From Rhizophagus irregularis (Eukaryota; Glomeromycota; Glomeromycetes; Glomerales; Glomeraceae), in assembly GCF_026210795.1 (NCBI RefSeq), contig NC_089445.1, positions 1,054,001-1,118,000 of the forward strand: a stretch of DNA of 64,000 bases. The letters are read 5' to 3'. Numbering within the stretch: position 1 is the first letter of the stretch; each line of letters begins with the position of its first letter. The notes beneath the pieces are model-generated. The model was not told where the DNA came from, did not search any database, and was given only the letters and a program-made list of their open reading frames with translations. Position numbers and translations under genes: made by a program. Shown here piece after piece: positions 35,966 through 56,010 of the stretch.

Positions 35966-36667
35966 ACTTCATATCGAATTCTAAAAATAGCCTAACAATA
36001 ACATATTCAAATCGATAAATCGATAGAGATTTTTATTTTCTAAATGAAAAAACGAAGGCCAATGAAAAAACGAAGTTCAATGAAAGATATAAAAATTTTG
36101 CAGTTATTTTAAATGATAGTTTCGCCCTTGTACAGCAAATTACTAGTGTTACTAATATGGAAATTTCTGAATAATAAGACTAATTAATTAGTCTATAATC
36201 GGCAAAAAAATAAAGGAATTCATTTTCTAAGCGATAGCATTCTCTCATACAACCCATTGTATAAGGCTTTCAAAATAAATGATTCAGATTTGTGAGATAA
36301 GGGAGTGTAGTAACTGTAGTATGTATCATTACGGTCAATAAATTATTACCTTAAAAAGGTTGGAGAATGAAGTACTATGTCGGGAAACAAGCATTGACCC
36401 TATTTTTATTGGCGATAAGAATGAGAATTATTAATTAACTTTGAAATTTTAATGAAAACCAAATCTCATTGCGACAAATGTTATTTATTAGGAGATAAAT
36501 CCCATGAAACTATTCTTTCCAATAATTTTTTATATACCTTGATTAATTTCGTTACGAAAAATTTTCTAGGTGACAATTTTATTATTTTTTATAAAAAAAA
36601 AGTATTGATTATTTGAATCTTAAAAGAAAAGGAAATTCGTTAATAATATTGATCTCTTTTTATACCT

Positions 36668-37033
36668 ACAGTTAGACCTCGATATACCAATATTCGATAT
36701 ACCGATACACAATTCACCTTCACTATAGTGAATCCCATGGGCTGGAGATTAAAATTCATTATAGTAAGAAATTCGCTATACTGAGGTTCATTTTATTATA
36801 CATAATAAATCTGTGCCTGAACTTTACTTCTTTACTTCATTATAGCAAGTTATTCACTATATAAAAATTCGGTGAACCGTACGTTAAAACTCGATATAAC
36901 GAAAATTTTACTTTCTTACTACTACATATATACGAGAGAACATAATAAATATCGGTATAATTCTGATATAATATTATTTTTCAAAGATTTTCATATGGAT
37001 CCCAACATATCGTTATATTGAAGTTTGACTTTT
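36668..37033. mobile_element. Pogo/Tigger-like MITE (CAGTTAGACCTCGATATA ends)
   Basis: The left end, CAGTTAGACCTCGATATACC after a TA, matches the well-known style of pogo-type terminal repeats (GACCTCGATATAACGA). The right end, TATCGTTATATTGAAGTTTG followed by ACTTTTA, is its diverged inverted partner. Interior sequence repeats the theme in both orientations (ACTCGATATAACGAAAATTT near 36,885; CACTATAGTGAATCCCATG near 36,722). No transposase ORF, so it is an old non-autonomous copy. Confidence 0.6.
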
Positions 37034-37039
37034 ATTAAA

Positions 37040-38340
37040 ACCTGAAAAATCTGATCGAGTTGAGGAACCTAAAGAATAACTTTTAATTTTATTTTTTCAA
37101 CTCAATTTAGAATTACAAATACAGATATGAAAAAAATTGATTTTTTTTTAGATACAACTAAATTTATTAATTCAAGAACAATCTATTATACGTCAATTTA
37201 AAAAATATAACATACGTGGGAAAAAAACTAACAATATGATAGTACAAGCATCAGTACTAAATTAGTAAGTTTCATTGTATAATTGTATACCGCAGATCAC
37301 CTAATTTTTTATTTCAATTAGCAAATCTGGGTAACAAGGCAAAATATCTTTTATTTAAATTAAGAAAGAAATTCTTACTTTTATATAAAACAAATATTGT
37401 TCAAACAATAATATGACTACTTTACATTGTAAGTATGTACTAAAACTAAGAGGAGCCTCGTAAACACAAATTGGAGTTTAAAATCTTTGAAAATTATGAA
37501 GTTAAATTACCCATAACAAAATCCGATGTCTGAAAGTTTTGACAGAACAATGCCAATTTTTTATCTGATTATTTAGATAACCTTATTATTTAATGGAAAA
37601 CTTTACAAAGCCATTAGTTTGTCACATGCAAAAAATCAAAAATGTCAAAGTGATTGCATATCAAATATGTTACATTGTTACATCTTTCAAAGACGTTACA
37701 CTGCATACAGTATGAACTGTGAGTCATATTAAAAAGATTTTAATTCGATATAGATCAAAAAGAAAGTACTTATTTGAAACGAATCTTTAATTCGGGTTTA
37801 ACTTTTGCATTTATAATTTCCTTAATCCAGTAATGGCAAAATGACTAAATGAAAATGGGAAAATTATCAATTACCCATAGTAGGCTGATATTTTAAATGG
37901 CAAATGAATATATTTATTAGTTTAGTTTGTGTTAGATGAAATTATTTGATTTGCTATACAATATAACATGTATATTGATCTTAATCTTTTAACGATGGAA
38001 TGGCGTAAAAGAACGGAAAAAATTATTCCGTATAGTACAATAACATAATAGTTAATGGTTCTGGCAGCTAATCCGTTCATCATTTATCATTCATAAAATT
38101 TGTAGCAGAGTAAATAAATAATTGAATAAATTGAGAATTTTGCACAGATAGCAAGATATTCTTTATTGGAAAAAAAACTAGAAATTCTATCTAATATATA
38201 TATATATTTTTTTTATAAATGAGTTAAAAATACATAAATTTTTAGGAATTTACTACAATTACACTGTGGCATCCTTCTGATTCATACATATATATATATA
38301 TATGTTCAATTTATATAAATTTGTTTTCATAAAGGGCACA
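37040..38340. other. Gene-poor AT-rich DNA
   Basis: I see no ORF, RNA gene or clear repeat beyond short AT dinucleotide runs near 38,200 and 38,290. Confidence 0.4.
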
Positions 38341-38399
38341 ACGCGACAAAAAGTATGAGAAAGTAGAAGAGTTTCGAAGGCTGGCTCCTAGGGATAGGT

Positions 38400-39095
38400 T
38401 ATGTTTCAATTCTTGTATCAAATCCATAACCTTCTACTTCTAAAGTACCACTCAACTAGTATACTTTTAGATTCATAATTTTCCTTTCGAAGATAACATC
38501 CAAGTGCATTAATCTCAACATCAGCTATTCTGTCTGCTTTTCCATTGATTCGAATTTTTGCTATAAAATACCGTCTATGATATTAACTTTTAGGGTACAC
38601 GCCGTGATGTCTCGTGAGTCATACGAAATTCCAAAAAGGAAATTTTGATTATAAACGGTTTTCAAAAGAATTTTTTTGCCGATCAATATCGATGTAGTCG
38701 GTGGATTCAAAGGATTTGGGGGATTTGGGACGGGATGGAAGGGGAGAACTATGAGTAGTAGTGGGGTAAATAGAGCACCTGCTATTCCCATCCCATTTAT
38801 TTGAACGGCAAGTATAGGTGGTATAGGTGGCACGGTAATTTTTTGACTAACATGATATGAAACCGTATCTGATACGGATTTCTGTATACTTTTTCATAAT
38901 TTGAATTAAATATACTTTTAATCCCACCAACAAATATCCCCATTTTCCAATAATTCGAGAATAGGCATACCAAAGATGAAATCCTATACCAACTGATTTG
39001 TAAATTCTGATTTCTTATTTCCAAGGTATAAATGTTTGATTTTGTTTCAATTCTAACGATAGTTTGTTGCATTTGCATAATATTCAAAAGCAAAA
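38400..39095 (-). pseudogene. Possible broken gene of unknown family
   Basis: Two overlapping minus-strand frames follow each other (39,093-38,797 and 38,833-38,561). After a stop the sense continues as AKIRINGKADRIADVEINAL near 38,500. The first frame has hydrophobic and aromatic text, the second a Pro/Asn/Leu-rich stretch (PNPPNPLNPPTTS). Composition is less AT-rich than the surroundings. I cannot name a family; a single decayed gene with one or two frameshifts is the simplest reading. Confidence 0.3.
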
Positions 39096-39304
39096 TCCCT
39101 ACTTAAAAGGTTAACGCGAGTCCTATATTTGGAGTATTACTATTGCGCTTATATTATAATTTCTAGGTTCAAATAACCAATAATTGATAAGAGTACTGAT
39201 ACTGGAATCTAAACTTACGATATTATCGATATTATTATAATTATTACCATCATCGATCACATGCGGATCGGCAATTAAAGGTTAACGACCCACAGTTAAT
39301 AAAA

Positions 39305-40680
39305 TAATTGGTTAATTAATAATTATACATAATCATAAGCATCATTAGCTTTTATGTTTCACCAAATTTGTGAGAAATGCTTGTATTCCCTTTTTTTAAA
39401 TAAAGTTATCAAAAAAGTAAACACAACATAAATATTCAGATGGATCATCAAATATTCTCTTTCAAAAATTTCTAAATTTGTTTGTCAACGAAAAATACCT
39501 CGATTTGAAGGCGCTTATTTTCGTCATACATTACCATTGTGAATCTTCGAACTTTATAACCTTCAAAAGAAACTTTAAAATCATATAAATCATATATGCA
39601 TATAATAAAGAACTTTCTTATAAGACTTAATATATTCAAAGGTCATAATTACTAAAATAGTTTTGCAAGAATGAAACATAGAAATGCAAACATTACAATG
39701 TGTTAGATAGTGAAATCTTTAAAACACTTTATTTTTTATTATATTCGTATTGCAATTATTTTTATCAAAGAAACATTCAAGTATTTCCAAAAAAGAGATT
39801 GTTCATTCATTCACTTTTCCTTAAAATACTTTTATTTTTTTTTCGTTAACGTATATTTTCTAATTGTCGATTCCTGATAATGTAAGTTCAATGAAATCGA
39901 TAAAAATAAATGTTTAAAATTAAATTTATTGGTCCATAATTAGTTTTTATTTTATTTATATTTTTATTTTTATTTTTATTTTTATTTTTATTTTTGATTG
40001 TTGAAAATCGGCAAAATATCCTACGAAATTATCAATCAAACAGATCTTGGAAAGTCATTTTCTTTGGATAAATTGGAAAGGGAGTTAAAAAAATATATGA
40101 GATTTACTAGGATTTAAACCAAGTTTATGATCGGTAAAAAAAAAGTTCGATTTTATAATAATTTTTATTTTATTTATTTTTTTTTTTCAAAAATTATATA
40201 CATATAAAATAATTTTCTAACCATAAATTCTAGTTTGATTAAACGTAAACGATCTGAAAGTGAAAGAAAAAATGGAGCGCTAGGTCCTATTGTTTCTTTT
40301 AAGGAGAATCTTGATTAATAAGGAATAATAACAGAAATTCGTCGATTTTAAATAACAACGATAATGAAACAGGATCACAAAGAGCTCGAGCGACTATCAC
40401 CGCAAATGTTACCACCACTACCACTGCTACTGCTACTACAACTAATATTGCCACCATTACTGCAACTACTGCAACTACTACTGCAACTGCTACTATAGCT
40501 GCAACTGCTATTGCTACAATCATTACAACTGCACCTGCAACAACTGCACTTACTACCGCACATACCGCACCTTTTGATCCACTTGATAATTCTATGTATC
40601 AGAATAATAACCTATCAGAAGAAATATCAAAATTATTTTCACCTCTCAAGACAATGAAGCGTGAGCAAAAGGAGTATTAA
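39305..40680 (+). repeat. Direct segmental duplication, copy C (partner 56,020-57,720)
   Basis: Shared words run in the same order in both copies: CATAATCATAAGCA, AAACATTCAAGTATTT, GAGATTGTTCATTCAT, CACTTTTCCTTAAAATACTT, ATTGTCGATTCCT, GAAAATCGGCAAAATATC and AAATTCTAGTTTGATTAAA. Copy C has the uninterrupted CGTTAACGTATATTTTC at 39,844-39,860 where copy D carries a 492-bp MITE. An ATTTTT microsatellite (about 39,955-39,997) is specific to C. Confidence 0.85.
39998..40680 (+). pseudogene. Broken gene with Thr/Ala-rich tract (copy C)
   Basis: Pieces of the same protein as at 57,290-57,715 can be read: VENRQNIL early, then LIKRKRSESERKNG after a TAG acceptor-like site. A stop and frame change follow near 40,315. 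The last open piece ends at 40,680 and reads NNNDNETGSQRARATIT, a long Thr/Ala-rich stretch encoded by ACTGCA-type hexamers, and then FDPLDNSMYQNNNLSEEISK and KREQKEY at the C-terminus. Family unknown. The minus-strand ORFs over the repeat are shadows. Confidence 0.45.
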
Positions 40681-40689
40681 ATAAATCTT

Positions 40690-42770
40690 CTAATAATTGC
40701 GTTATTGAAATAACAAATGATCATTAATAAGTAAATGAAAATATATCTTTATGTATCTTCTTTTTTAATAAAAAATCAACTACCTTTTTTACGTAAATTA
40801 CATAACGTTTCCATATATTTTTGCATATAATAGACCTCTACTTCCAATCGTAATATAAGTTTGCATGTTTCTCGTGAATATACTGTATAATAAACTAGAT
40901 TGTATTCTCATGATCATTCTCGTTTCGGGAGTATATTTGAGATTCCTACTTCCTCCAGTCTTCCTCCAGCGTAATCTTCAGAAAATAATATGTATCATCT
41001 GATAATAGCTTGTTTTCATTTAAATATACGCGAGGTGATCGATTATATGTCAAAAAAAAATTGAATAGAGAACCATATACATTATTTTCTTGAATTATTA
41101 TCTGGAAAACCACCTTTTCATAAAATAAAACATGATATTATCTTAATTGTTAGAAATATATAATGGATTCAGAAAGGAACTCCTGAAATTTATAAGAAAT
41201 GTTAATGGTTCTATAAAATGATTATGTTACTTTTTGATTTCATTTTTCCTCTCATTTTCGTATTCTTTTCGTTTCTTCTTTAACACAATCTTCTCTAATA
41301 AATCTTCTCTTCCGATTTCCAACAAATTTTCGACATTACTCTCTTTCCCAGAACAATATCTATAAAATGTAATCCTTCTTAATTTAAATATACTAAGTTA
41401 AAAAAAAATTTTTTTTTTTTTTATGCGACTTTGCCTCTTGCTAACTGCAATATATGTTAAATCTTATTTGTTTGATGAATGTGAGTTGCGTTCCCAAGTT
41501 TCATTGATAGTTTTTATTCACTACTGGTAACAATATATAACAATATTAGTCGAATAATTATCAAAAAAAAGATTATTTTCTTTAATTTGTTATCTCACTC
41601 ACTATCCCAACGGCATTTTTTGTTGATTGTCCTTTTCCTAATGGCGCGTAAAAAAATAAAAATTAAAATTAAAAATTTTTCTCTAATGTATAAAAATAAT
41701 TCAGCACGACGACCAATTACTCAACCTTGGTTGAAAAAAATTTTTTCTTTGAATTTGTCAACTACGAAACCTCATTATTGCTAAGCGTTATTAATATCTC
41801 TACTATAAATTCTAATAATTAACCTAAGACCTAAATGATAAGTAAATGCAAGTATTTGTAAATAATCAAACTAAAAAAGAAGAATAATAATAATAAAATA
41901 TTCTTACCATAAACTTAATATTCTGTTACAACGAACTAAATTTTTTTATAAATTTCTTTTTTTTTTTAAAGAGTTATATAATATTCATCCCTTTTAAATT
42001 ATCAAAAATTATATCTTAATACTTGTATCGTTCAGAGGTTCAGGTGTGAGATTCATTTTTTTTTTTCGATTGTGATGCCGAATCATGCAGTTTATACTGT
42101 ATGTGCCGAAAAAAGTAATCAGTGATTCAGCCGACTCACATGACAGATTTACAATTAAATAGCTAAATGTTTGCCGAATTAACAGATGACCTTGAAAGCA
42201 AATTTAATTGGAATTAATGATAATTTATTAGTGGATAAATACAATGATGAGCTAGGAAATTTCATTATTTGAAGTGTTCATTGAAAATATATTTTTTTGA
42301 GGTTGTAATGCTTATGGTAATGATCATAAATAGTTTAATGATAATATGGACTTGATTTACTTGATTTTACGAATAGTAGAAAATTAAATTTATGCTATTT
42401 CATCTCAAAATGCAAGAGATTTATGATCAATTGAATGTTTTAGAATCCATTCATATTCTTTAAATTGAGATCTTTGTTTATGAATGAAATATTATATATT
42501 GAATCATAGGAGACGAACATAATGAACAAAAATGACAATTAAAACGACAATTATTTAAATTTATTATGAAATATCGTTAAAAAGATTAGATATTTTGATT
42601 CGGGTATACATGATGATAATATTTATTTATTCATTGGAAATAATCTGTAACAAATTACATAATATTTATAAATAATCATTTACAGTATTAATAAATATAC
42701 ACTGGGATAAGATAATGAATGTATTTATGTATTAAATTACGGTTCTCGATTCATGTATAGGAAAAATTTA
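40690..42770. other. AT-rich DNA with one possible small exon
   Basis: On the minus strand, 41,225-41,360 is open and highly charged (SNVENLLEIGREDLLEKIVL then KKKRKEYENERKN), preceded by an acceptor-like TTATAG. It could be the last exon of a gene whose upstream part I cannot find. A 65-codon + ORF at 41,587-41,784 is basic and has no support. The rest is featureless. Confidence 0.25.
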
Positions 42771-42779
42771 TAGACTTCC

Positions 42780-43860
42780 AACACTTTCCAAGCAAAAACA
42801 CTCGTACAAAGCGCAAACAGAAAGCTAGGTTTCAGCGTCATTGTGCACGAATCTTCAAACTAGGAAAAAAGATGCCATCACATCTTTGAAGATAGATTAA
42901 TAGCTGCAAAACGATCTCGTTTCTTATTCTTAGAATCACAGTATATTGACAAACCTATCCAGCACCTGAAATATTCCACATGGACTCAACTTCCTGACGC
43001 GCAAGATTATCCTTTTTTAGCCCCTCTCTTTTCATTCTTACATAAGACGCAAACATACACAAACACCTTCGATGGCTCCTCATGATGAACACTCGCCAGC
43101 GTCAGAAATGACACCTACAAACATAGAAATCGACAGGGCCATTGATACTGTTGCCTTATCGGCAACAGTTCCTATGAACACTGTTCAATTTTTCTTTCAA
43201 TTCCGCTGAGTCGCCAATTTTACCGTTATATCATACGGTTGAAAATTTTAATCCCAGAACCTTCCAGTGTACATGTTCCTACTGAATTAATACCTTTTAT
43301 TCCTAAAAGACCTATTATTCAAATTCAGGCCACACATATTACCCTCCAGGTTCGCCTCAATGGTTCTCTCATTTAAAGAAACAGCATTCAAATCATATCA
43401 AATCTGAAAAAGGACAAAGTGCGGGCAATTGACAACAGGAATCAACAATTGAAAAATGAACAATACTCAAAGAAAGAGCCTCATTTCACGGTACGAGTGT
43501 TAAAAACTCAAACGCCGGAGCCTCTTTACAGATGATCTCAGTCTATATCAAACACGTTACCATGATTGAATGAAAACCTTTGAAACTAGACGTAAAAAAT
43601 TTCGAAACAAGGTTCCAAGACTTGAACAATTAGAAAAAGAAATTGCTACATTTAAATTAGATTATTTTGACGTAGCACCTTAGACGGCATGGATTTATTA
43701 TAAGGATCGTTCCGATACGTCTGATGACACGAATCAAGACCCAACAAACGGATTTCCGATGCTAACACTAACCTTACTCCCTTCCACATCACGAATACTA
43801 CCAAGAAGACGCGTCCGTCACCAGGTTCCCACATGACTCACCTGCCGGACCGTCGAAACC
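42780..43860 (+). pseudogene. Degraded, less AT-rich coding relic, possibly retroelement-derived
   Basis: This kilobase is clearly less AT-rich than its surroundings and contains many short open stretches in changing frames on the + strand. Examples are MAPHDEHSPASEMTPTNIEI (43,073), FIPKRPIIQIQATHITLQVR (43,280) and KTFETRRKKFRNKVPRLEQL (43,570). Another is WIYYKDRSDTSDDTNQDPTN at about 43,690. The Pro/Gln/Ser-rich and then coiled basic style resembles gag-like ORF1 proteins of retroelements, but I cannot match a family. Numerous stops and frameshifts exclude function. Confidence 0.35.
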
Positions 43861-44818
43861 GTATTAGAATTAGTTCTTCTTTTTTTTATCACTTTTAATG
43901 AGTCATTTATAACATATTTGTAGTCTTCTTTACTACCACATTGACATTCAAACAATTTAGAATAGTGTAAATCACTCCGTCTCTAATAGTATTGACAGGT
44001 GGTAACTTTCGAGATGAAAGCAAAATACAGGTATTTTATAGATTGCGTTTTATTTTTATTCCCTAGCCTTTTTTTCTCGTGTGTTATGGGCGGGGGCGCT
44101 CCTAGGAGGGTGGCGCTGTCTTATGACGGTTTAGCTCAATTTTATATAAAAAAACGCCGAAACGTTTTTTTTGTACCTGATTGGTGACCGATTGGTGACT
44201 GATTGCACGTAGTTGCATTTGGCTTACGTGTAGTTCTTCCTTGTAATCTCGATCGTGGCTTTGTTCACGTGGAATTTAAAAATAAAAATAAAAAAATTAT
44301 TTTATCATTATCATTGCATCAGGTTCGAAATATAAACAGTTACCGATAAAAAGAATACTATAATAGTTAAAGGATGGGTCTATTGATACGTGAAGAAAAC
44401 TGCAATTACAGGACTAATCGAATAGGTGGACATATATATCATGGACAATGGGATATTTTGCGTACACGGCAACTAATCCAGTAACACTTTTTCATCTAGT
44501 GACTTGATATTTCTGGCTCATTTAATTTCATTATATATTTTACAGCCAAAAGACACGATCGGTAAAAGGTAATTTATTGGTTTTTACAAATTAATTTTAT
44601 CCCGGCAAGCTTTTTTATTAAAATGCTTTACCAAAATGTAGTGGATCAGTAGTGTTTGCTAATACTAGTGGCGACTTTGAAATGATAATTTTTTTTTTTT
44701 AATTAAGTATGATACTACAATATTACTTAAATTTACATATTTTAAACACACAAATTAGTTTTTACATCGGTCAAAACTTATTTATTATTGCAAAGTACTT
44801 GTTACAATGTTACAATTG

Positions 44819-45073
44819 TTACATCATGGGTAAGTCCCACCATTGTGCGTCCGCATCACGTTTATAATTTAATGCTTCTGCGTCTGCATCACGTTTATAA
44901 TTACCAGGTGCTGCATCTATGTCAGTAACGAATCAAATTATAAATTATTATTAAAAATTCATTAGTTAATAATTAATATTAATATAAAGAGAAAATTTTT
45001 TTTAAATATGTGATTATTTACTCGCTAAAGCAATAGTAAAGGCGAAAATCAACAGTAAATGTGATAATTGCAT
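44819..45073 (-). CDS. Secreted Kex2-processed peptide precursor, alpha-pheromone-like, 49 aa
   Basis: Two exons, 45073-45022 and 44916-44819, are joined across a 105-bp GT(AAAT)...(ATAG) intron. Exon 1 encodes a textbook signal peptide, MQLSHLLLIFAFTIALA. Exon 2 encodes a short pro-part and two copies of NYKRDADA: the first is followed by EALNYKR, the second by QWWDLPMM and the stop. Lys-Arg is the Kex2 site. Asp-Ala/Glu-Ala repeats directly after it are substrates of Ste13-type dipeptidyl aminopeptidase. This is the layout of yeast alpha-factor precursors (KR-EAEA-peptide). The predicted mature peptide is QWWDLPMM, Trp-rich like alpha-factor, plus a short LNY-containing piece. A TATATAA box lies about 100 bp upstream on the minus strand. 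No second copy was seen in the window. It may act in mating-type or other cell-cell signalling. The precursor is unusually short, with only one long peptide. Confidence 0.85.
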
Positions 45074-45169
45074 GATTTATTAGTGTGTTATTTATAATTT
45101 TTAATTTCTCAGTTGTTTGTTAATTATTTGGAAGAAATTTAAGAAATTTTTTCTTCTCTTTCTCAGTGG

Positions 45170-45176
45170 TTATATA
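45170..45176 (-). promoter_or_regulatory. TATA box of the peptide-precursor gene
   Basis: Read on the minus strand this is TATATAA, about 100 bp before the ATG at 45,073. A purine-rich leader (GAGAAAGAGAAG) follows. Confidence 0.5.
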
Positions 45177-45239
45177 AGAAAATTTTTCTATAATAGTACG
45201 TATTTCAAAGTACTTTAAAATTATATTTTTAATATTATT

Positions 45240-45530
45240 ATAAATGATGAGGTGTACAAGAGTATTTTTGCCACGTTTTTCTGTATTGCGCCATGTTAAA
45301 ATTTAGTGTTGAAGAGCAAAGCCAATTTAATAAGTGAAAATGGGGCGAACCGGTGAAGTAAAGGATATGTATAAAAGTATTTTTGCCACGTTTTCTGTAT
45401 TGCGCCACGTTAAATTTAGTGTTGAAAAGCAAAGCGAATTATGTGCGTGTATAGAAGAATTTTTGTCACGTTTTTCAGTATTTCGAAATGATGTTAAAAT
45501 GAAAATTTTTGCCACGTTTTTCTGACGGGC
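45240..45530. repeat. Irregular tandem repeat beside the peptide gene (unit about 80-115 bp)
   Basis: The word GTATTTTTGCCACGTTTTTC or a close variant starts at about 45,262, 45,377, 45,461 and 45,505. The first two are followed by TGTATTGCGCCA(T/C)GTTAAA and TTTAGTGTTGAAAAGCAAAG. Short open frames exist on both strands only because of the repeats. Confidence 0.75.
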
Positions 45531-45599
45531 AATATATATTACGTAATGGCGCCTGTAATTATCCAAAAAAGGAAGGACCTGCTCGTTACTTTTTGGTAT

Positions 45600-45640
45600 T
45601 GATCAAAAGTTTTAATTCGTGATCCGTGAGTCAAGTCAGT
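45600..45640. mobile_element. Solo end of a TTAA MITE (family B)
   Basis: TTAATTCGTGATCCG at 45,612-45,626 matches the terminal repeat of the 56,555-57,046 element, including the TTAA border. I find no partner end nearby. Confidence 0.4.
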
Positions 45641-45989
45641 CAACTGCAAAAAAATTCATATATGATTTTGGCACAAATTTGTGTCGATCATTAGTAATTT
45701 TTTTCTGATACCCGATTTTCATTTCTTAATTAATGCTCTTTACGTAAACCCATTCAACACCAACATATTTCAAGAATTCATGTTTAAAGGGGAGTTAGGA
45801 CTATAAAATGTAAAATATATGAAATATAATTTATTTTGAACTTGTTTATGATAAAACATAATGTAAAATTTATGAAAGGAAATTTGATTCTTTCCTTTTT
45901 ATATAATTGTTTTTTTTTTAGTTTATAATTATTATTAGTTTATAATTATAATAAATGAAATCGTGTCATAACTATATACACTGTGTAAA

Positions 45990-46085
45990 TCGCTTACGAA
46001 GACAGCATAACGCTGGCCATGTTCGTGCATAACTCTGCATACCTCTGGCCAAACTTTTGTAAGCCACTAAGTGTCTTGTTGAGAA
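45990..46085. repeat. Short foldback with two CATAA-GGCC modules
   Basis: CGCTTACGAAGA on the left faces CTTTTGTAAGCC on the right. The centre has CATAACGCTGGCCA and CATACCTCTGGCCA in direct order. Confidence 0.45.
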
Positions 46086-46212
46086 ATCATCTGTTGGGAT
46101 CGCTAGTTTTTAAAAAAGACGAAATTTTTTTTATAATGATATGAATATAAAAGTGAATTTGATTTCTTATTATTTAATTTGAAATATTTTTTTCTTCTCA
46201 AAGGTGACAACA

Positions 46213-46420
46213 ATGAGTGTTTTTTTTTGTTTAGTAGAAAGCAAATTTTGTGATAAAAAATCTGGTACAGAATATGGAGATGTAGTTTTAGAATGGGATT
46301 ACAAAATTATGAAAGATTGAAATGAAAGGTTTTTTTTTAGAACACATGTAAAGGAATAAATGCAAAACAATTTAGTGAAAATGGATAAAATGGATATTAT
46401 GTTTGGGAGATTTACATCAT
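46213..46420 (+). pseudogene. Frameshifted copy of the small gene at 429-677
   Basis: It starts MSVFFCLVESKF and continues with KSGTEYGDVVLE, paralleling MSVFCLIETKF and KSGAEFEDAVFK in the minus-strand gene at 429-677. The frame is then lost: the equivalent of IGQQSYEKFKWKVFYNTCKG appears in the other frames as LQNYERLK and NTCKGIN, with stops between. No product beyond about 35 residues is possible. Confidence 0.6.
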
Positions 46421-46683
46421 CATATATAGTACGATCATTCTGACGTCTCAGTCGTCTCACGTTGACAAATTTTTTTTATTTTAAATAAATGTATCATCTT
46501 ACTTAAATAAATTTAATTATTGATAAATTATCCGATTATTTATAAGAAATTTAACTATTATACAAAATTTGTATCAAAGTGAATAATTAACAATAAATAG
46601 TTCAAAAGAATCTGAAAAATATATTGTAATAAATATGTGAAATCCGTGTAGTTGCTACAGATTTGCAACTACTTCTCACTGTA

Positions 46684-47598
46684 ATGGAAGCATTATTTAA
46701 TTATTTATTTCTAAACACTGATAGTTTAATTCCAATTCCCATTTATAATAATGATAATGGACTTCTCAGGGAATTTCTCAGTGATAAGAAAGATGCTAAA
46801 AATACTAGCGATATGATACTTTGGAGAGTTAATGTCAAGAAAAAAGATATAAAAAGTGGTTCTACCGAATAATGCTGTACATTGTACAAAAACTTCATAG
46901 AGAAGAAATAAACAGTTTAAAAGGCTATTTTAAAGATGAATTAGATACTAAAAATTTTGTAGTATCTAACATCCACATTAGACACCGTTTCAAACCAATA
47001 GATGCTCGAAGTTATTTAACTACAGATACCTTGTGGAACGCCTTACTGGGAGGACCTGCTTTAACGCGAAAAAAAAGAAATCAGACTAAATTCGATGCAA
47101 ATATCTAGTTCGAGAGGTAAAACATTGGAAGACACTTACCAGTGGCGGGATTATGGTGAAAAAAACTCTAACAAGTCTCTTACTTATTATTGGTTCTAGT
47201 AGGTCCTAACTGAAACGATGTTACTTCTATCTACGAGTGGATACAACAATTCAGGACGTGGTAAAAACTGAGTATGTCTTTTAGCTTTGTTATCTTTTCA
47301 ATTATTAGTTCCTCTGGCTAAAATTGAATTGACCTTTCAGCTCGTTAAAACCTTTGGTAAAGACTTTGAACTTCATCAACGAGAAGACACCATCGATACC
47401 CTCTGGAATGGTAGCACAACGATATTTGGGATTAAGAGGCGATTTGAACATCGCAATGTGGATGACAAATACTTTCATTCAATCCCCGTCTTAGCCGGTG
47501 GACCTGAATTTCTTGATGAAATCGAAAGATCGCTCAGGCATTGTATTAATGAATCTGATAAGAAAATTTACCGCAGCGGCCTCATTTCAAACCCATAA
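46684..47598 (+). pseudogene. Truncated CRN-like pseudogene (copy 1)
   Basis: It begins MEALFNYLFLNTDSLIPIPI, a CRN-header-like N-terminus shared with 58,490. Compared with that copy it lacks about 60 bp after the NDNG codons. It also has an extra stop near 46,870 and holds one segment of about 70 bp (47,091-47,158) in inverted orientation. Further on it has RNVDDKYFHSIPVLAGGPEF and RHCINESDKK, in which the Walker A (P-loop) has been deleted. Homology stops at 47,598. No functional NTPase is possible. Confidence 0.75.
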
Positions 47599-47599
47599 T

Positions 47600-48350
47600 A
47601 ATAATTTGTGCCATTTTATTATGAAGAATACGTAAACCACATGAGTATATAGTAAAGTAGTATGGTACGATATAATATAATAAGTAAGGTATTATTAATT
47701 GTGTACAGGTATGGGTATGATTAGTTATATTATAGACAAAATTAATACTAATTTTATAACTAACTTTTTAACGGTAATTAAATTAAAAAAAGAAGTTTAG
47801 TAAGATCGAAAGCATACCTGATACCGGTTAAAATTTCATACCTAAAAAGCAATACCGTAACAAATACATAAGAACATACTCCCGCCTAAACCACATAATT
47901 TGTTACGCAATGACAATTATTGATTTATTTAGAGATCGTGTAGTAAAGTCATTGCAATTTAAACATAGGCGTAACCCGCGCGTTAATTTGTTAAATAACT
48001 TACTAAGCACATATTTAAAATTGAAGTATTAGACCTTTATTACGCTTATTGTAATCTTAGGTCTTGATCAATATATTATTAATCATGGTGCATGATGCAA
48101 CTGCTGATATTGATTTTGATAAATTGCGCGATACGACCGATACGTCTCTGAGTTACTCATATTTTGAATAACTTTCTATAATAATTACGTAAAAATTGTT
48201 ACGCAACATACAATTGAAGGCCAGTCCTGCGGATCAGCCATACTCCTTTAATCAAATCAATCCAATCAATCAATCAATCTGTCCAAATATAAAATCAGCC
48301 GCGTATTCATTTTGTGTATAACCCACTGATATTTTTTTTATAAATAAACC
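47600..48350. other. Intergenic DNA, no gene seen
   Basis: Notable only for repeated TTGTTACGCAA words (47,899 and 48,196) and a short CAATCAAT run at 48,259-48,280. Confidence 0.4.
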
Positions 48351-48359
48351 ACTTTTGCA

Positions 48360-48660
48360 CTTTTTTTTTTAACGTCCTTATATTTTTTTTTTACTTTTAC
48401 AACGACCTTATTTTTTTTTTAACGACCTTATATTTTTTTTTACTTTTACACCGATTTTTTTTAACGACCTTATATTTTTTTTTTTAACGTCCTTATATTT
48501 TTTTTACTTTTATAGCGACCTTATATTTTTTTACTTTTATAACGACGTTTTTTATATTTTAAATATCTTTCTTTTACTTTTATAATGACATTTTCTTTTA
48601 TAACAAAGTCTCTCTTTTTTTACAACGAGGTCTCTTTTTTTTACGAGGTCTCTTTTTTTA
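48360..48660. repeat. Irregular tandem repeats (AACGACCTTATATTTTTTTTACTTTT type)
   Basis: Units of about 22-35 bp built from AACG(A/T)CCTTATA plus T runs and ACTTTTA follow each other with much length variation. They grade into a CGAGGTCTCTTTTTTT motif that leads directly into the 104-bp minisatellite. Confidence 0.8.
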
Positions 48661-48663
48661 TAC

Positions 48664-49182
48664 CGAGGTATCTCTCTCGTACAAAAAGAGTTTGTTTTGC
48701 AGTTTTATTAGTAAAAACGCCCATTTCCTGACGATGTCTAGGTTTTACATCTGGTCGTCACGCGTAACGAGGTACTCTCTCGTATAAAAAGAGTTTGTTT
48801 TGCAGTTTTATTAGTAAAAACGCCCATTTCCTGACGATGTCTAGGTTTTACATCTGGTCGTCACGCGTAACAAGGTATCTCTCTCGTATAAAAAGAGTTT
48901 GTTTTGCAGTTTTATTAGTAAAAACGCCCATTTCCTGACGATGTCTAGGTTTTACATCTGGTCGTCACGCGTAACGAGGTACTCTCTCGTATAAAAAGAG
49001 TTTGTTTTGCAGTTTTATTAGTAAAAACGCCCATTTCCTGACGATGTCTAGGTTTTACATCTGGTCGTCACGCGTAACGAGGTATCTCTCTCGTACAAAA
49101 AGAGTTTGTTTTGCAGTTTTATTAGTAAAAACGCCCGTTATTTCTGGTGATGTCTAGGTTTTACATCTGGTCACCAGTATAA
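48664..49182. repeat. Minisatellite, five units of 103-104 bp
   Basis: Units start at 48,664, 48,768, 48,871, 48,975 and 49,078 with C(G/A)AGGTA(T)CTCTCTCGTA. Each contains AAAAAGAGTTTGTTTTGCAG, TTTTATTAGTAAAAACGCCC, and GACGATGTCTAGGTTTTACATCTGGTCGTC in two parts. The first four are nearly identical; the last diverges at its 3' end. Units 1 and 5 share ACAAAAAGAG, while units 2-4 read ATAAAAAGAG. Confidence 0.92.
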
Positions 49183-49189
49183 TGAAGAT

Positions 49190-51620
49190 GGTTGAACTTT
49201 CTAGACCATTGTATAGTATAATATACATAATGTGACTGTAGACGACCTTGGTTTATTGGAAACGTGATAAACCCATAGCATATGCCCCTGTCTTCCGGCT
49301 GGTTAGCCATAGCATCCCTCTGAGTTTGCCGATTGGTGTTTGAGGTCATAGCTCTAGAGTTCTTCCATATTCTGTTTCTTTTCTTTCTCCTATGTGTTTA
49401 AAAGAATAAGCAAACAGAATTTTTTTTAAATCTTATCCTGGTGGAGAGCATGTCTATGCTTTGACTAGTTCGATTCTAGCCTAAGATCTTGACAATCATA
49501 TTTAATTTTTTTTTTAAAAATATTAAGGGGCTCTTTAACAAATTTAGGGTAAAAATCATTTGGGATTTCACAAAATAAATGTTATTCTATTTACATTTCT
49601 CGCTAATTAACTAACTTTAGTATATACAAATAATAAGAAATGAGTGGTAAAAATTGAAATTTTGTTAAATATTTATTTGATAGAATTATTGAAACGGATT
49701 AAAATATGAATCTAAGATCCAGAATATAGGGTTAAAATAAGATTTTGGATATGAGAACCTTCTTTAGTTTTCTATTTTAAAATTTAAATTCAAAAATTTA
49801 ATAGTCGATAATAAAAATTTTAAACCAATAAAAATTTGAGTCAAAACCTTTATATATTAAAAAAAAAAATTGTATTGTGTATTTATTTATATATCAAGTT
49901 AGTTCATTTTGATTCGAGCAATGACTCATTTTTAAAAAACGAATTTATAAAGCAAACATGTATCTTGACATGTACAATTATTATATTAGAAATTAAATGA
50001 TCATTTGGGTTTCCTTTTTTTACTGCGTCCTAATAGAATATCGTTAATAAAAACGCGTCCGACGTCAAGATATACTTCAACTTTATATGAATTCCTTTTT
50101 TTTGAACCATATTTTAGTTTATTTCTTACTATAGTAGTTAAGCGTTAATGCTTGAAAAGACGTTTTTCTTTTAATTTCGTGTTTAGCAACGCAGCATGTA
50201 AAATTTTACGTTGGTACATTCATGTGATTTAAAATTCATGTGATTTAAATATTTATTGGTTATGGTTACTTTCAAATGGTACAAAGAAAGTAGAATTTCT
50301 TATCGTATTTTATTTGCTTTTACACATATAATCGAAAAATATTACGAAAATAAACACAATTGAGTTTACTTATCTAATTAAAAAACTAAGTTGATTCGTA
50401 TATTAGATTTTTCTCAAAAGTTCTTTAATCTGAATTTTATATGCTTCCCTATTTTAGTTAAAAAAAGAATAAATTAAAGTTATCAAATTAAAATCTGTAA
50501 TTACGTTTTCTTGAATTTAATGGTTGCAGAATTTTACGGTTGTATTCAAGATCAATTCTACTAATATAATTGTTGATGCTGAGATTTATAGTAACGAAAA
50601 TAATCTATAGAAATAAATATAAAGTATTTTTTTTTGTTTTCTACTAAATTATTCGTAATTTTTAATTATTATAATAATCACCTTTGAGTACTATTTAAAT
50701 CACTATCTAAACCATATTCTTATGTAATATATTTTAAAAATTGGAGATATCCAAGTTAATAAAATAATGATAATAATAATAACAAATACTTCAATAAACA
50801 GCGAATTAATGAAATATATAATTTACTCATTTTTACCCTAATTTTGTACTACACTTCAAAATTTTTTACACGAATTTTTAGACTGGAATTTCTTTTTCAA
50901 ATATCCAAGTGTTTTATTAAAAATATTAGATATTTCTTGATAATATCTTTATCAAATTAAGTGCACCATTTTAATATAAAATTACTCTATTATACACATT
51001 TAACTTAATTTTTATGCTAGATAGGTACGATATTCATATAGAAAAGCAGTACTAAATTTTTCTTTCTAACTTTAGGGAGTCACCACCTTGAGGAGGTCAA
51101 ATGACCTGTATGAATAAAATCACATTTGAATTATTTTACGCAGATCGCCTCGAATATGAATTTTATAATTTAATTCAATGTAACGGTTAATTATATTATT
51201 AAACTGATCATATGGCATCCATTCAAATATTGTATTTGTGTATGATTGATTTTGATAAATTTAAATTTTTTGTCGATCCTAAAAATTTCTTTACTGCGCT
51301 TTATTATTATCAATTTATTTATTTATTTATTTATTTTTATTTTTACTTCATTATCTATTAATCAAATTATCAGATATTTACATTATCATTATTGAACGTA
51401 TAGTAGATTAGTACGGTGCAACGGCGTTTTCTCCCTATAAGGAGTAAATTTACTTTTTTTACATGGTAAAAAATAAATGATATTCCAAATGTGTCTGTCC
51501 TTCTTGATCCCTCCTGTCGATCACACATATTTTGGCGTTACAATGTTTCCATTATAATAGTCAAATATGTACATTTATATAAAATATATAAGTATACTGT
51601 ATATTTTAATTGGTTTAAAA
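49190..51620. other. Gene-poor AT-rich DNA
   Basis: The first 200 bp (to about 49,400) are less AT-rich and have a 62-codon minus ORF without support. The rest is featureless apart from a TTTA microsatellite at 51,315-51,340. Confidence 0.4.
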
Positions 51621-51629
51621 ATTTTTTAA

Positions 51630-52336
51630 TGTACACTCCCCGGTAAAAAGTATCCGACCACCCTAAAAATTAAAAAATCTTAAAAAATTCAGTGGGCCCA
51701 ACAATAAATTTATATTTATTTTAAAAGTTTGAGACATGAGACACTTTTTAAAAGTGTTTTTTTAGCTTAATTATTAGTAAAAATTCGCGGACATTTTTAA
51801 TTCTAAAAATGGCAAAATTCTTAACTTTTTAACTAGAGCAGTTACGGCCAAATGAATTCCAGAAATCAATTCTTTGACTAAAAAATAGCTTATGTTTAAA
51901 AAATCAGAAAGATTGGACTGGTAGTTGCCGAAAAATCCACCACTGAAGATCATAATTTTTATACTAAAATTTGGCAAAAATGGTGATTTTACCGTTTTTA
52001 CATATAAAAATTATGATCTTCAGTGGTGGATTTTTCGGCAACTACCAGTCCAATCTTTCTGATTTTTTAAACATAAGCTATTTTTTAGTTAAAGAATTGA
52101 TTTCTGGAATTCATTTGGCCGTAACTGCTCTAGTTAAAAAGTTAAGAATTTTGCCATTTTTAGAATTAAAAATGTCCGCGAATTTTTACTAATAATTAAG
52201 CTAAAAAAACACTTTTAAAAAGTGTCTCATGTCTCAAACTTTTAAAATAAATATAAATTTATTGTTGGGCCCACTGAATTTTTTAAGATTTTTTAATTTT
52301 TAGGGTGGTCGGATACTTTTTACCGGGGAGTGTACA
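51630..52336. mobile_element. Large near-perfect palindrome, Tc1/mariner-type foldback (about 700 bp)
   Basis: The ends are TACACTCCCCGGTAAAAAGT on the left and its reverse complement on the right, bordered by TA. The two arms (about 51,630-51,964 and 52,003-52,336) are reverse complements over their whole length, with a 38-bp loop. Near-identity of the arms is shown by the same 60-odd-residue translation appearing on opposite strands. The CACTCCCCGGTAAAAAGTAT terminus and TA border fit Tc1/mariner elements. No transposase. Near-identity of the arms implies recent origin or gene conversion. Confidence 0.9.
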
Positions 52337-52813
52337 CTTTAAATACGCGAAACTAGAGAGTAGTTTGTTCACGCATAAATAAAATGTAATTGATAGAATC
52401 TTAAGTATACAAATATGCTTGACCTTTGGGTTAATATGTAGGCTGTAAATAAAAGCAGACAAAACAAAATCGTTAAAATTTTATGTGTAGTTTCACCGCT
52501 GGAACCCACAGGCGCCCCAAGTAAAACATAAAACGAACATATAAAAAAATTTTTTTTTATAGCAAAAAAATGAATACACGTTTCAAGAACATTTATGATT
52601 TTTAGCTCAATTTGGATTATTCTAGAAAAATTTTTATAGTACGATATTTTTTTTGTATACGATGTCATTTTGTACTTATGAATAGTGAAAATTAAATATA
52701 AATTATTACATAATTATAACTTTTTTAATGTTTTTATTGATAAAATTATATGAGATATAAAATACAAATCAAAAAAAAATTAAATAATTTAAATTATAAC
52801 TAACTGATAATCA

Positions 52814-54246
52814 CTAAGGATCCAAAAACCACAAAGGTCTACTTGTGTAATACGCTTCTGGATGTATCTCCGGATGAGTATTTTTGTCAGATAATTGAGA
52901 AATTATTATTTGTCTCCTATTTTCAGCAATAGAATATTCATCAAAAATTTCTGAAGGATTTGGATTATCACAAATTAATGTGATCCATTCTCCTAATTTT
53001 TCATTCAAGTAAGAAGCGGTTGGACGTTTTCCCGGATCATTGTCCCAACATTGTTGCATTAATTCTGCATAAAATTTTGGTGTATCCTCTGGAATTTCAA
53101 GCCTTTCATCATCACAAATGCTTTTTGCTAAATTAATATCATGAGCTCTATTATACCAAGGTCTTTTTCCAGTTGAAAATGTATTCATAATAATACCAAA
53201 TGAATATATATCAGAAGCAGTACTATAATCTTCACCACGTAAAACTTCCGGCGCAATATATGGTAAAACTCCACATATGCTTTTATTTTCATGGTAATAA
53301 CATGGACCATGAAGACCCACATCAGCAATACGAGTACCTATCAAAAATTTTTCGTCAACAAGTAAATTTCCTCCATGAAGGTTTCTATGAACTTTTCCTT
53401 CAGCATGAATCTTTTCAAGCCCTCTAGCGATTCCCCATAATGTATCGATTATATTAATCCAAGAAAGGATTCCATTGGAACGATCAAGGTATTGATACAA
53501 GTTACCGTTTTTGTAGTATTTCATAATAATCATATAATTAGATGTTGGATCTTTCGTAATTCCAAATGTGTCAGCCATTAAATCCGATTGTAAACACTTG
53601 TGATATGCTTTAATCTAAAATTAAAAATAAATGCAGAATGAATTATGAATATCGTATAATTTAAGAGGTGTTGTACTTTCTACCAATAGGATTATATTTT
53701 GTTTATCATGTGATCAAGAAGCGACTACCACATATAAAAATCTTCGATATTTATATGTTCTTTCATGAAAAAATAAAATAGCAACCGGTAATAGCAACCG
53801 GTACCACCGTATTTAACATTAATTACCTGATTAATGAAAGAACTTGAAATCTCCTGTGAATTATCAAGACGTTTCAAAGCAACAGTCATAGGGCCAGCTC
53901 GAGCCCACTCTTGCGCACCATCATCCCAAATCCATCTAGGTCCTTCCATCCAAAGTGCTGAATAGGTACTACCAAATCCACCACTGCCAATATATTTTAC
54001 CATTTCAAATTTATCAAATGGGATCCATTCCAAGTAATCACAAGTTTGAGAGGCATTAAGTTGAGTATGACGGATTAATTCATCTATTTCTTTAATCCCG
54101 CTAGTCCAATAAAGAAAGTTTTCCTTCATGGAATTGGTTTCACAATCCTTACACCATCCGAAAGAGATTCTGGGTTTACCACATTCTGGACAGGCTTTAA
54201 GTTCTCTTGGGATAAATTTATTTCCTTGACAATAATCTTCTTCCAT
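52814..54246 (-). CDS. K4: TKL-like (pseudo)kinase with N-terminal zinc ribbon, 406 aa
   Basis: Two exons, 54246-53827 and 53614-52814, with a 212-bp intron at the same codon as in K1 and K3. The zinc ribbon is CPECGKPRISFGWCKDC. The kinase domain has GSGGFGS, VALK, HRN in place of HRD (Asn218), DVG (Asp238) and YIAPE. It keeps the Arg of HRD, unlike K1 and K3, but also lacks the catalytic Asp and reads NQIK in the alpha-C position. The C-terminus ends RPLWFLDP, a few residues short of K1. The start is MEED, as in the other copies; an upstream in-frame Met would add 11 residues. Exon sequences near GPRWIWDDGAQEWARAGPM are almost identical to K3 at the DNA level. Confidence 0.88.
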
Positions 54247-54780
54247 TGATAAATCGAAAAGCGGACTAAAAGTTGACATATTTAAATATTTATACGTAAT
54301 AGCGAAATTTTTATCTTTTAATGCTAATATAAAATTAATTACCTTGGAAAAATTTTTTATTAAAAAAAATAAAAAATAACCACCGTAAATTCGCCCATTT
54401 TATATACAATTTGAGCTCCTAAAAGAGGAGTATAATTTTTTTTTTTTGATTTTTTTTTTTTAAAAAAAAAATTAAAAAAAAAAAAAGAGGGAGATGGCTT
54501 ATTTATATATTTTTAAAGATGAGCTTTTAAAAAAGAATTAATTTATATCTTTAACGAATGTTACATTTTTATGCGGGTAGGCGCAAAAATATGCTTGACC
54601 CGTCACATGTATTAACCCACTGCATGCGTATATTTGCGATACAGGCGTAAAAACTAGTGTTGCAAGGATAATATTGGCTCGGAATACCATAACCGAATTA
54701 CCGCACGATATAACGTCTGATCAGGTTACAACCAATCAATAATATTAATTTTACTTTCCCACATGTTTAATTTTTATATT

Positions 54781-55185
54781 TATCACAATTTTCGAATTAC
54801 TGAGAACAGTTTAAAGAGGAAAATAAAATAAAATAAATGATTTTTTTCAAAAACCCACGAAAACAGTAAATTTTATTGCATTTTTAGATAGAGAAGGTGC
54901 GATTATAACCTGAAAATGTTAATTTTAGAGCAGAAAACTTAATTTTTCGGTAAGTTCGCATATAAGCGACTTTTGAGATTTTGTGTAACCTAAAAGTTCT
55001 CTATAAGTAAACTTACCTAAGAGTTGGATTTTTCATCCTAAAATCAAGGTTTTCATGTTATAATTGCACCTTCTCCTTCCAAAAATACAATAAAATTTAC
55101 TGTTTTCGTGGGTTTTTGAAAAAAATCATTTTTTTTATTTTATTTTCCTATTTAAACTGTTTTCAGTAATTCGAAAATTGCGATA
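54781..55185. mobile_element. Foldback MITE (405 bp)
   Basis: The left arm starts TATCACAATTTTCGAATTAC and the right arm ends with its near reverse complement. Pairing continues through AAACCCACGAAAACAGTAAA and GAAGGTGCGATTATAACCTG, giving arms of at least 130 bp. The centre also pairs loosely (GTAAGTTCGCATATAAG; CTATAAGTAAACTTACC). No ORF. The family is unassigned because the target duplication is not clear. Confidence 0.8.
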
Positions 55186-55189
55186 AATC

Positions 55190-56010
55190 ATTAGATGTGG
55201 ATTATTTAGTTAGCCGTTGCGGAACTTTGCCAGGAGAAAGTTAAAAGTTTGAACTTTCGAAGCAGCAACTAAATAATAGAGTTTTTGATATACTAATTGA
55301 TGAAATGTCCAAGCATGGTCAATAACAAGGTAAATTTAGTATGTACTGTACGTCAATAAAATTTTTTATATCCTCCGTCCAAAGTTTCAGCACTAATGTC
55401 TTTAATAAAACCATTTGTCTATATGTCATTTCATCGTGTGAATTACGCAAAAATCTAATGGAGAATTAGATGCTATTCTTTGGGAAAAAATTCAATAAAA
55501 TTGTTCACCTTTTAGTTAGGTTTCAAAATCGACATCTTGGATCCTGGTTTAAAATTAAATTATTAATCTTTAATATATATTGAATGGGATCACAGAAATC
55601 AATGAAGTCATGACCACTATAAGAAAGGTTTTTTTTAGATATAATACTTTGTAACTTGCTAGCTAGCTAAGCGTTTTAAAAATATAATAACGTCATATGT
55701 TATTTTTTTACCGCCTATAAATAGAATTACAATGAAAAAATAAGACATCTTAAGATAAGTATTAGAATCATGATATAGGTGCATTTATGTTAAAAATGAA
55801 TTAAATGAGCAGTGGTAATCCAAAAAAGCGCGATAATTTAATGAGAATTTAAATAATTATGAAGTCTTTGATCTTCAAGTCAATAATATAAAAAATATAA
55901 ATTGACAGTGAAATCATGAACTTGTCAGGAAAGTCAGTATTTTAAAGAAAAGAAATTTCGACTTGGGACACTTTAGCCTACTATAATAAAATGAAAAATA
56001 AAGTGGCGCT
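55190..56010. other. Intergenic DNA, no gene seen
   Basis: No supported ORF, RNA gene or clear repeat. Confidence 0.4.

Follow-up and report, generated by a model that had tools for sequence, protein, structure and literature searches.

The gene read on the minus strand between positions 45073 and 44819 of the window, the whole stretch of 64,000 nucleotides of Rhizophagus irregularis DNA that was analysed, is by its sequence one member of a large paralogue family and not a lone gene. Its leader exon, phase-1 intron and promoter block are all shared with this leader-cassette family. The structure of the gene, the family, the promoter block, the contrast between leader and cargo, and the bias towards aromatic residues before KR were observed directly. 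The best explanation, to which a probability of roughly 65% is assigned, is that the window gene belongs to a Rhizophagus family in which one leader cassette is joined to many secreted peptide precursors. With less certainty, the peptides are taken for a diversifying, probably co-regulated set that would serve in biotic interaction.

Exon 1 of the window gene (45022..45073, minus strand, 52 nt) starts with the ATG at 45073 and encodes the signal-peptide leader MQLSHLLLIFAFTIALA together with the first base of the next codon. It is followed by a phase-1 intron of 105 nt (44917..45021, minus strand) running from GTAAAT to CATAG, in which no RNA fold signal was detected (z 0.11), and by exon 2 (44819..44916, minus strand, 98 nt including the TAA), which reads NAAPGNYKR-DADAEALNYKR-DADAQWWDLPMM. 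Splicing of the two exons gives a product of 49 residues, MQLSHLLLIFAFTIALANAAPGNYKRDADAEALNYKRDADAQWWDLPMM. An earlier note on this DNA had proposed the coordinates 44819..45073, a spliced 49-residue frame and an intron at 44,917-45,021, and all of these were found to be correct when the sequence was read again; the two NYKRDADA repeats and the terminal QWWDLPMM that it described are also present. The repeating part of the protein is NYKRDADA, while the QWWDLPMM tail is single and unrepeated. The two KR sites divide the protein into three fragments, and KR-DADA, with Ste13-like xA dipeptides behind KR, occurs twice. YKRDADA is found twice in the window and in 0 of 60 windows simulated by a Markov-2 model. 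The sole difference between the two NYKRDADA units is synonymous (GCA/GCG), and the protein holds just two Tyr, one in each NYKR. The 17-residue hydrophobic leader, a candidate signal peptide by its sequence, is conserved throughout the family, and a leader resembling exon 1 is found in all 38 gene models kept in the census described below. At the window locus the open frame, both splice sites, both KR sites, and three exact and one imperfect promoter cores are intact.

The exact protein is already deposited: P0001 ('15761_t:CDS:2', Rhizophagus irregularis) equals the window protein letter for letter over 49 residues (E 1.5e-25), so the same splice was made by another annotation. Hidden, the word that the earlier note used for the gene, is only partly apt: a single deposited annotation carries the protein, as 1 member sequence from 1 contig of 36,775 bases. 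The 17 further matches of the same protein search are at most 68% identical to the window protein. Across the protein searches, the homologues that reach significance belong to Rhizophagus and Glomus or are unnamed metagenome proteins; a Metschnikowia alpha-factor (E 0.079) and Acaulospora (E 0.73) are matched only with E values over 0.05. Glomus cerebriforme proteins P0016, P0026 and P0028 carry related leaders and KR-DADA-like units outside Rhizophagus, which suggests that the leader family is older than that genus.

Tail length and frame vary among the relatives of the window gene. P0040, from the RhiirA4 annotation, keeps the leader, KRDAEA sites and WWDF; its probable counterpart in the present genome, L039 on C15, is frameshifted. 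The metagenome protein P0035 has FWDF, and its start reads like an unspliced intron. DLPMM is kept in L040 and LPM in L041, with WW absent from both, and the near copies L039 and L041 are disrupted. Disruption of the KR-DADA and WW motifs in orthologues had been named as a result that would speak against the gene, and on this point the relatives are divided: KRDA sites and WWD persist in P0040 and FWD in P0035, whereas WW is gone from the L040 and L041 copies. One part of the subgroup thus conserves the WWD core, and another part has lost it.

The genome searched has 32 contigs that add up to 147 Mb. When 501 bp around the window gene were used as a query against it, 48 matches were obtained (from the best 40 of 64 candidates scored), the majority of which fall on portions of the 5' region, exon 1 and the intron. 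The leader, the intron and the DNA upstream of them are repeated across the genome. A total of 64 stretches were fetched, 40 via gene searches, 16 via the promoter core and 8 via a second leader query. A splice-aware script run on these proposed 51 models; 38 were kept, which derive from 34 of the 64 stretches and are spread over 18 contigs. The 13 others were dropped before counting; two of them, in L086 and L089, look like true leaders whose intron was not placed, and the rest are frames unlike the leader. Exon 1 is 52 nt long in 35 of the 38 kept models and the intron donor is GTAAAT in 33. These two counts are less affected by the choice of models. That choice allowed phase 1 alone and gave preference to KR and xA, so that the counts of phase 1, KR and xA are inflated: xA stands at the start of exon 2 in 33 models, at least one KR is present in 32 and none in six, and at least three KR sites are found in 14. 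When all criteria are applied together in a strict check, 25/38 models pass and 13/38 fail.

Deposited proteins exactly equal five of the 38 kept models, the window gene being among those five; one model that fails the strict check, L067_1973, nevertheless equals a deposited protein. Several kept models are doubtful, for example L057 and L070. No kept model came from 30 of the 64 stretches, at least four of which are chance core sites; L083 and L090, which hold leader-like frames by eye, have no kept model either. L082, L088, L091 and L094 have a leader whose start or frame is broken. Many family copies look decayed, which counts against the best explanation.

Upstream of the window gene, the 14-nt core AACGTGGCAAAAAT is present three times in exact form and once in imperfect form, all on the minus strand. 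Copy 1 of the promoter block, which served as the 80-bp query, lies at 45250..45329 with its core at 45264-45277, and copy 2 lies at 45368..45440 with its core at 45379-45392. The imperfect core AACGTGACAAAAAT, its position taken from the sequence, is at 45459..45472, and a further exact core is at 45505..45518. The exact core has 38 sites in the genome against 2 for a reversed control pattern. Twenty of these sites fall inside stretches already obtained, and the other 18 led to 16 new stretches. By eye, ten of the 16 (L082, L083, L086, L088, L089, L090, L091, L093, L094 and L097) have leader-like or KRDA-type sequence downstream, the KR cargo of L086 not being clear; L085 and L095 hold the promoter only, and L084, L087, L092 and L096 are chance-like core sites.

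The 80-bp block query gave 53 matches (from the best 40 of 53 candidates scored), or 36 loci when merged within 1200 nt. A leader on the same strand is found no more than 900 nt downstream of 45/53 block matches, a count that uses nine leader positions placed approximately by eye, with six of the 45 depending on those alone. The remaining 8/53, in six places, have no recognised leader downstream. These places are L085 (C9:1428528, tandem), L095 (C26:2189565), C20:3452345-3452536, C10:3250196, C20:2217604 and C1:675394; they may be either decayed genes or other regulated genes, the sequence having been read for L085 and L095.

A 21-nt core with up to 5 mismatches was found within 250 bp upstream of 29/38 members and in 0/400 random 250-nt windows. 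At up to 7 mismatches, 35/400 random windows also match, so the members with the weakest promoter alignment are uncertain. An alignment of 31 members anchored on this core shows about 43 bp of conservation with flanks near background; seven of the 38 were left out, five without a match and two without upstream sequence. Within the searched 250 bp, the anchor begins at distances of 132 to 245 bp from the ATG. The search itself biases the columns of the 21-nt anchor; the conserved columns beyond it, which include GGCGCA upstream and ACTCTTGTACGCC downstream, are free of this bias. That copies of the block are found in many members is explained by common descent through duplication, and a function is suggested by its conservation in excess of the flanks.

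The leader and the cargo behave very differently. Leader identity averages 0.72 (496 pairs from 32 KR-bearing models), against 0.09 for the C-terminal peptides (378 pairs from 28 of those 32 models). The pooled dN/dS of exon 1 is 0.41 over 35 exons, a value that is indicative only, as paralogue pairs are non-independent. From 0 (six models) to 28 KR-type sites are found per model, and the cargo series of the family include AYGYKR, QHYKR, EDFNKR, QPPWAWKR and GVGFKR. F, W or Y stands directly before KR in 42/64 distinct contexts, against a background of 16%, and an aromatic residue precedes KR at half or more of the sites in 21/32 genes.

L042 (C7:5327196) and L043 (C7:4446055) are near-identical copies in which the same leader is followed by a cargo devoid of Kex2 sites (AAPFDPNNKMASDVDCISTDFENCYRITGAV); they suggest that coupling of the leader to unrelated exons is possible. 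P0027, P0043 and P0045, which are proteins of R. irregularis and Rhizophagus diaphanus, begin with a leader of this type and a KRDADA segment and go on into a longer stretch. In P0027 that stretch resembles LRAT below the threshold (E 6.1e-5; 23.7 bits, the cut-off being 24.3), in a Pfam scan that covered 10 of 54 retrieved proteins. At L077 (C20:1899000), AYGYKRDAEAE units and a long KRQEE repeat array lie within one open frame. The unnamed protein P0044 has a different leader and the KR-DADA grammar around Tyr-rich peptides; its profile score (E 1.7e-6) shows that the KR-DADA motif alone partly accounts for profile matches. P0038, a partial protein of Acaulospora colombiana, likewise combines another leader with the same grammar around Tyr-rich peptides. 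Judged from these sequences, the KR-DADA processing grammar is wider than the leader family.

In the proposed mechanism, a promoter block, a signal-peptide exon and a phase-1 intron held in common would be joined to a second exon with fast-changing short peptides. Kex2, by its known specificity, would cut after KR; a Kex1-type carboxypeptidase, as known enzymes of this type do, would remove the KR; and a Ste13-type dipeptidyl peptidase would, by its known specificity, trim the DA/EA/EP spacers. Given Kex1-type trimming, most of the short linear peptides released would end in an aromatic residue. The products predicted for the window gene are (A)APGNY, LNY (or EALNY) and QWWDLPMM, the tail having a non-aromatic end. 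The claim of a Kex2/Ste13-type precursor grammar made for this gene stands: KR sites are followed by x-Ala dipeptides, and pieces of both kinds of enzyme are present in the genome. The Kex2-type P-domain piece is on C32, where one TAA, perhaps marking an intron, interrupts the open frame; the Ste13-type pieces, with DPPIV_N, were found at two loci (C5 and C12; 6 matches).

Much of this grammar is already known from R. irregularis. The class of Kex2-processed repeat proteins (KEPs) goes back to a definition by Le Marquer et al. 2019, in whose available passages a high number is given for this fungus, mostly with Ste13-like signatures, along with Tyr-rich peptides whose role the authors left open and seven KEPs with differential expression (PMC6339444). 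As described there, the pipeline asked for at least 4 fragments separated by KR or RR, at least 3 similar repeats, SignalP and TMHMM; Ste13-like xA/xP dipeptides behind KR, present in most R. irregularis KEPs, were not a criterion (PMC6339444). The genes studied here resemble these KEPs in a hydrophobic leader that fits a signal peptide, KR sites, Ste13-like xA/xP, Tyr-rich peptides and the number of members. They differ in that the window gene, with two KR sites and three fragments, fails the fragment and repeat criterion, and by KR number at most 14/38 family models would pass the 2019 pipeline. In the parts of the literature consulted, no common leader, intron or promoter was found described for such genes, and supplementary tables may hold individual members.

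Other known systems share part of this design. Kex2-cut repeat proteins, including the SP7 group, were treated by Kamel et al. 2017 in the sections available (PMC5293756); the SP7 family of R. irregularis is similar in being secreted with repeats starting [KR]R, a likeness by description only. In Coprinopsis, according to the portions of the paper accessible, mass spectrometry revealed KEP peptides, knocking out KEPs left no detectable phenotype, and a role in biotic interactions is suggested by its authors (PMC9769878). A KEP survey, as far as its available text goes, lists type P-4 as common to Rhizophagus, Diversispora and Trichomonascus (PMC7329392). The yeast alpha-factor precursors MF-alpha-1/2 have a similar secretory leader, KR with EA/DA dipeptides and excision of peptides. 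Unlike them, the window protein has no MF_alpha Pfam match, no long pro-region and an unrepeated tail, and it belongs to a large diversified family in a genome without a STE2 match (controls silent). Conotoxin-like precursor families have a conserved leader and a hypervariable mature peptide. The analogy with them is one of architecture only, as the window peptide has no cysteine framework and the organism is unrelated.

The earlier note had taken the gene for an alpha-pheromone-like precursor that releases a candidate mating or self-signalling peptide. Were it a true alpha-type pheromone, QWWDLPMM or LNY would be sensed by another individual via a pheromone receptor and would trigger mating, which is unlikely. 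The precursor grammar is indeed that of alpha-factor, with signal, KR and DADA spacers. Very weak resemblances also exist, namely PDB chain 7aft_H, an alpha-factor precursor, in a local match (E 2.3), the Metschnikowia alpha-factor mentioned above, and a match of P0038 to MF_alpha_N (E 0.1, below cut-off); these are attributed to the KR-xA-xA grammar. The window protein itself matched no Pfam family at E up to 10, hence neither MF_alpha nor MF_alpha_N, and the 38 modelled paralogues carry largely unrelated cargo, which does not fit a dedicated mating pheromone. QWWDLPMM as the octapeptide signal fares no better, the tail being unrepeated and NYKRDADA being what repeats. The earlier note had also advised looking for a Ste2-type receptor gene; STE2 (PF02116) had no match in the genome, a weak negative as the control genomes were silent as well, while the same profile search found STE3 in two pieces on C13 (best E 1.1e-35). 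A STE3-class receptor would favour a pheromone, yet such receptors classically bind lipid-modified a-type peptides made without Kex2, as stated in the consulted part of that source (PMC6339444). Halary et al. 2013 reported an orthologue of STE3 but neither an alpha-factor nor an a-factor gene, by a method that, according to the available passages, can miss short pheromone genes; those passages contain no explicit statement that STE2 is lacking (PMC3834313). Co-inoculated R. irregularis isolates gave a putative mating-like transcriptional response, although mating-pheromone genes were not upregulated in the part of the study available (PMC7490403). The results do not support calling the peptide a pheromone; such a sexual role is possible, and is less supported than a set of peptides acting outward.

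It is somewhat more plausible, while still doubtful, that the window copy is a decaying duplicate, in which the leader cassette was copied to a locus now out of use. Its protein is in one deposited annotation only, its near copies L039 and L041 are disrupted, no model was kept from nearly half of the stretches, and the tail differs in length and frame between relatives. Against decay, the frame, splice sites, promoter cores and KR sites of the window gene are all intact, its NYKRDADA units differ just synonymously, and the WWD core is seen again in P0040. That the gene makes a modified cyclic peptide like the ustiloxins (dikaritin type) is highly improbable. The likeness to dikaritin RiPP precursors lies in Kex2-separated short cores, often with Tyr, as these are characterised in the available text (PMC7329392), and KR with spacer repeats and Tyr-rich cores such as AYGY do occur in sister genes. 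However, UstYa/DUF3328 (PF11807) had no match in the genome, with the control genomes silent as well and the negative weak for that reason, and the window protein has only its two Tyr, one per NYKR. Scarcely credible is the spread of the unit as a mobile element with the peptides as a by-product. The joint dispersal of promoter and leader over 18 contigs would agree with it, as would the block matches without a recognised leader; on the other side, two ORFs of at least 120 aa in 36000-56000 are kinase-like by eye, with none transposase-like, and the leader dN/dS of 0.41 and the KR-aromatic grammar point to constraint at the protein level.

Returning to the leader-cassette family of secreted precursors, it is tentatively proposed that the family peptides are co-expressed and act outward, at the plant interface or on other fungi or microbes, and that they may be diversifying for that reason. 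A bolder reading, put forward as speculation, is that dozens of leader-cassette genes form one regulon, co-expressed through a single promoter element, whose hypervariable bouquet of short peptides, mostly with an aromatic end, would be a combinatorial, strain-variable signal of identity or interaction. Its scope would be R. irregularis and perhaps other Glomeraceae, with recognition of partner, kin or host as examples. If true, this would provide an interaction signal in a fungus without an established peptide pheromone. Why a plant symbiont that diverged early has KEP peptides whose processing signatures resemble those of yeast is, in the passages available, an acknowledged open puzzle (PMC6339444). 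With leader and promoter in place of repeat number as the defining features, the family gains members that fall short of the published cut-off, and a single candidate regulatory element is linked to dozens of peptides that differ from one another. The family also yields a short list of synthetic peptides for application to the fungus and to roots.

Two minor features of the window may be added. At 52814-54279, two adjoining minus-strand ORFs have translations that look kinase-like by eye; kinase-like proteins are a class expanded in R. irregularis. In the 3' flank of the gene, the 80 bp at 44727-44806 are 100% identical to C15:1446153-1446232, unlike the longer matches in other family copies, which are 80% or less identical, and this flank identity perhaps reflects recent copying between C15 and C17.
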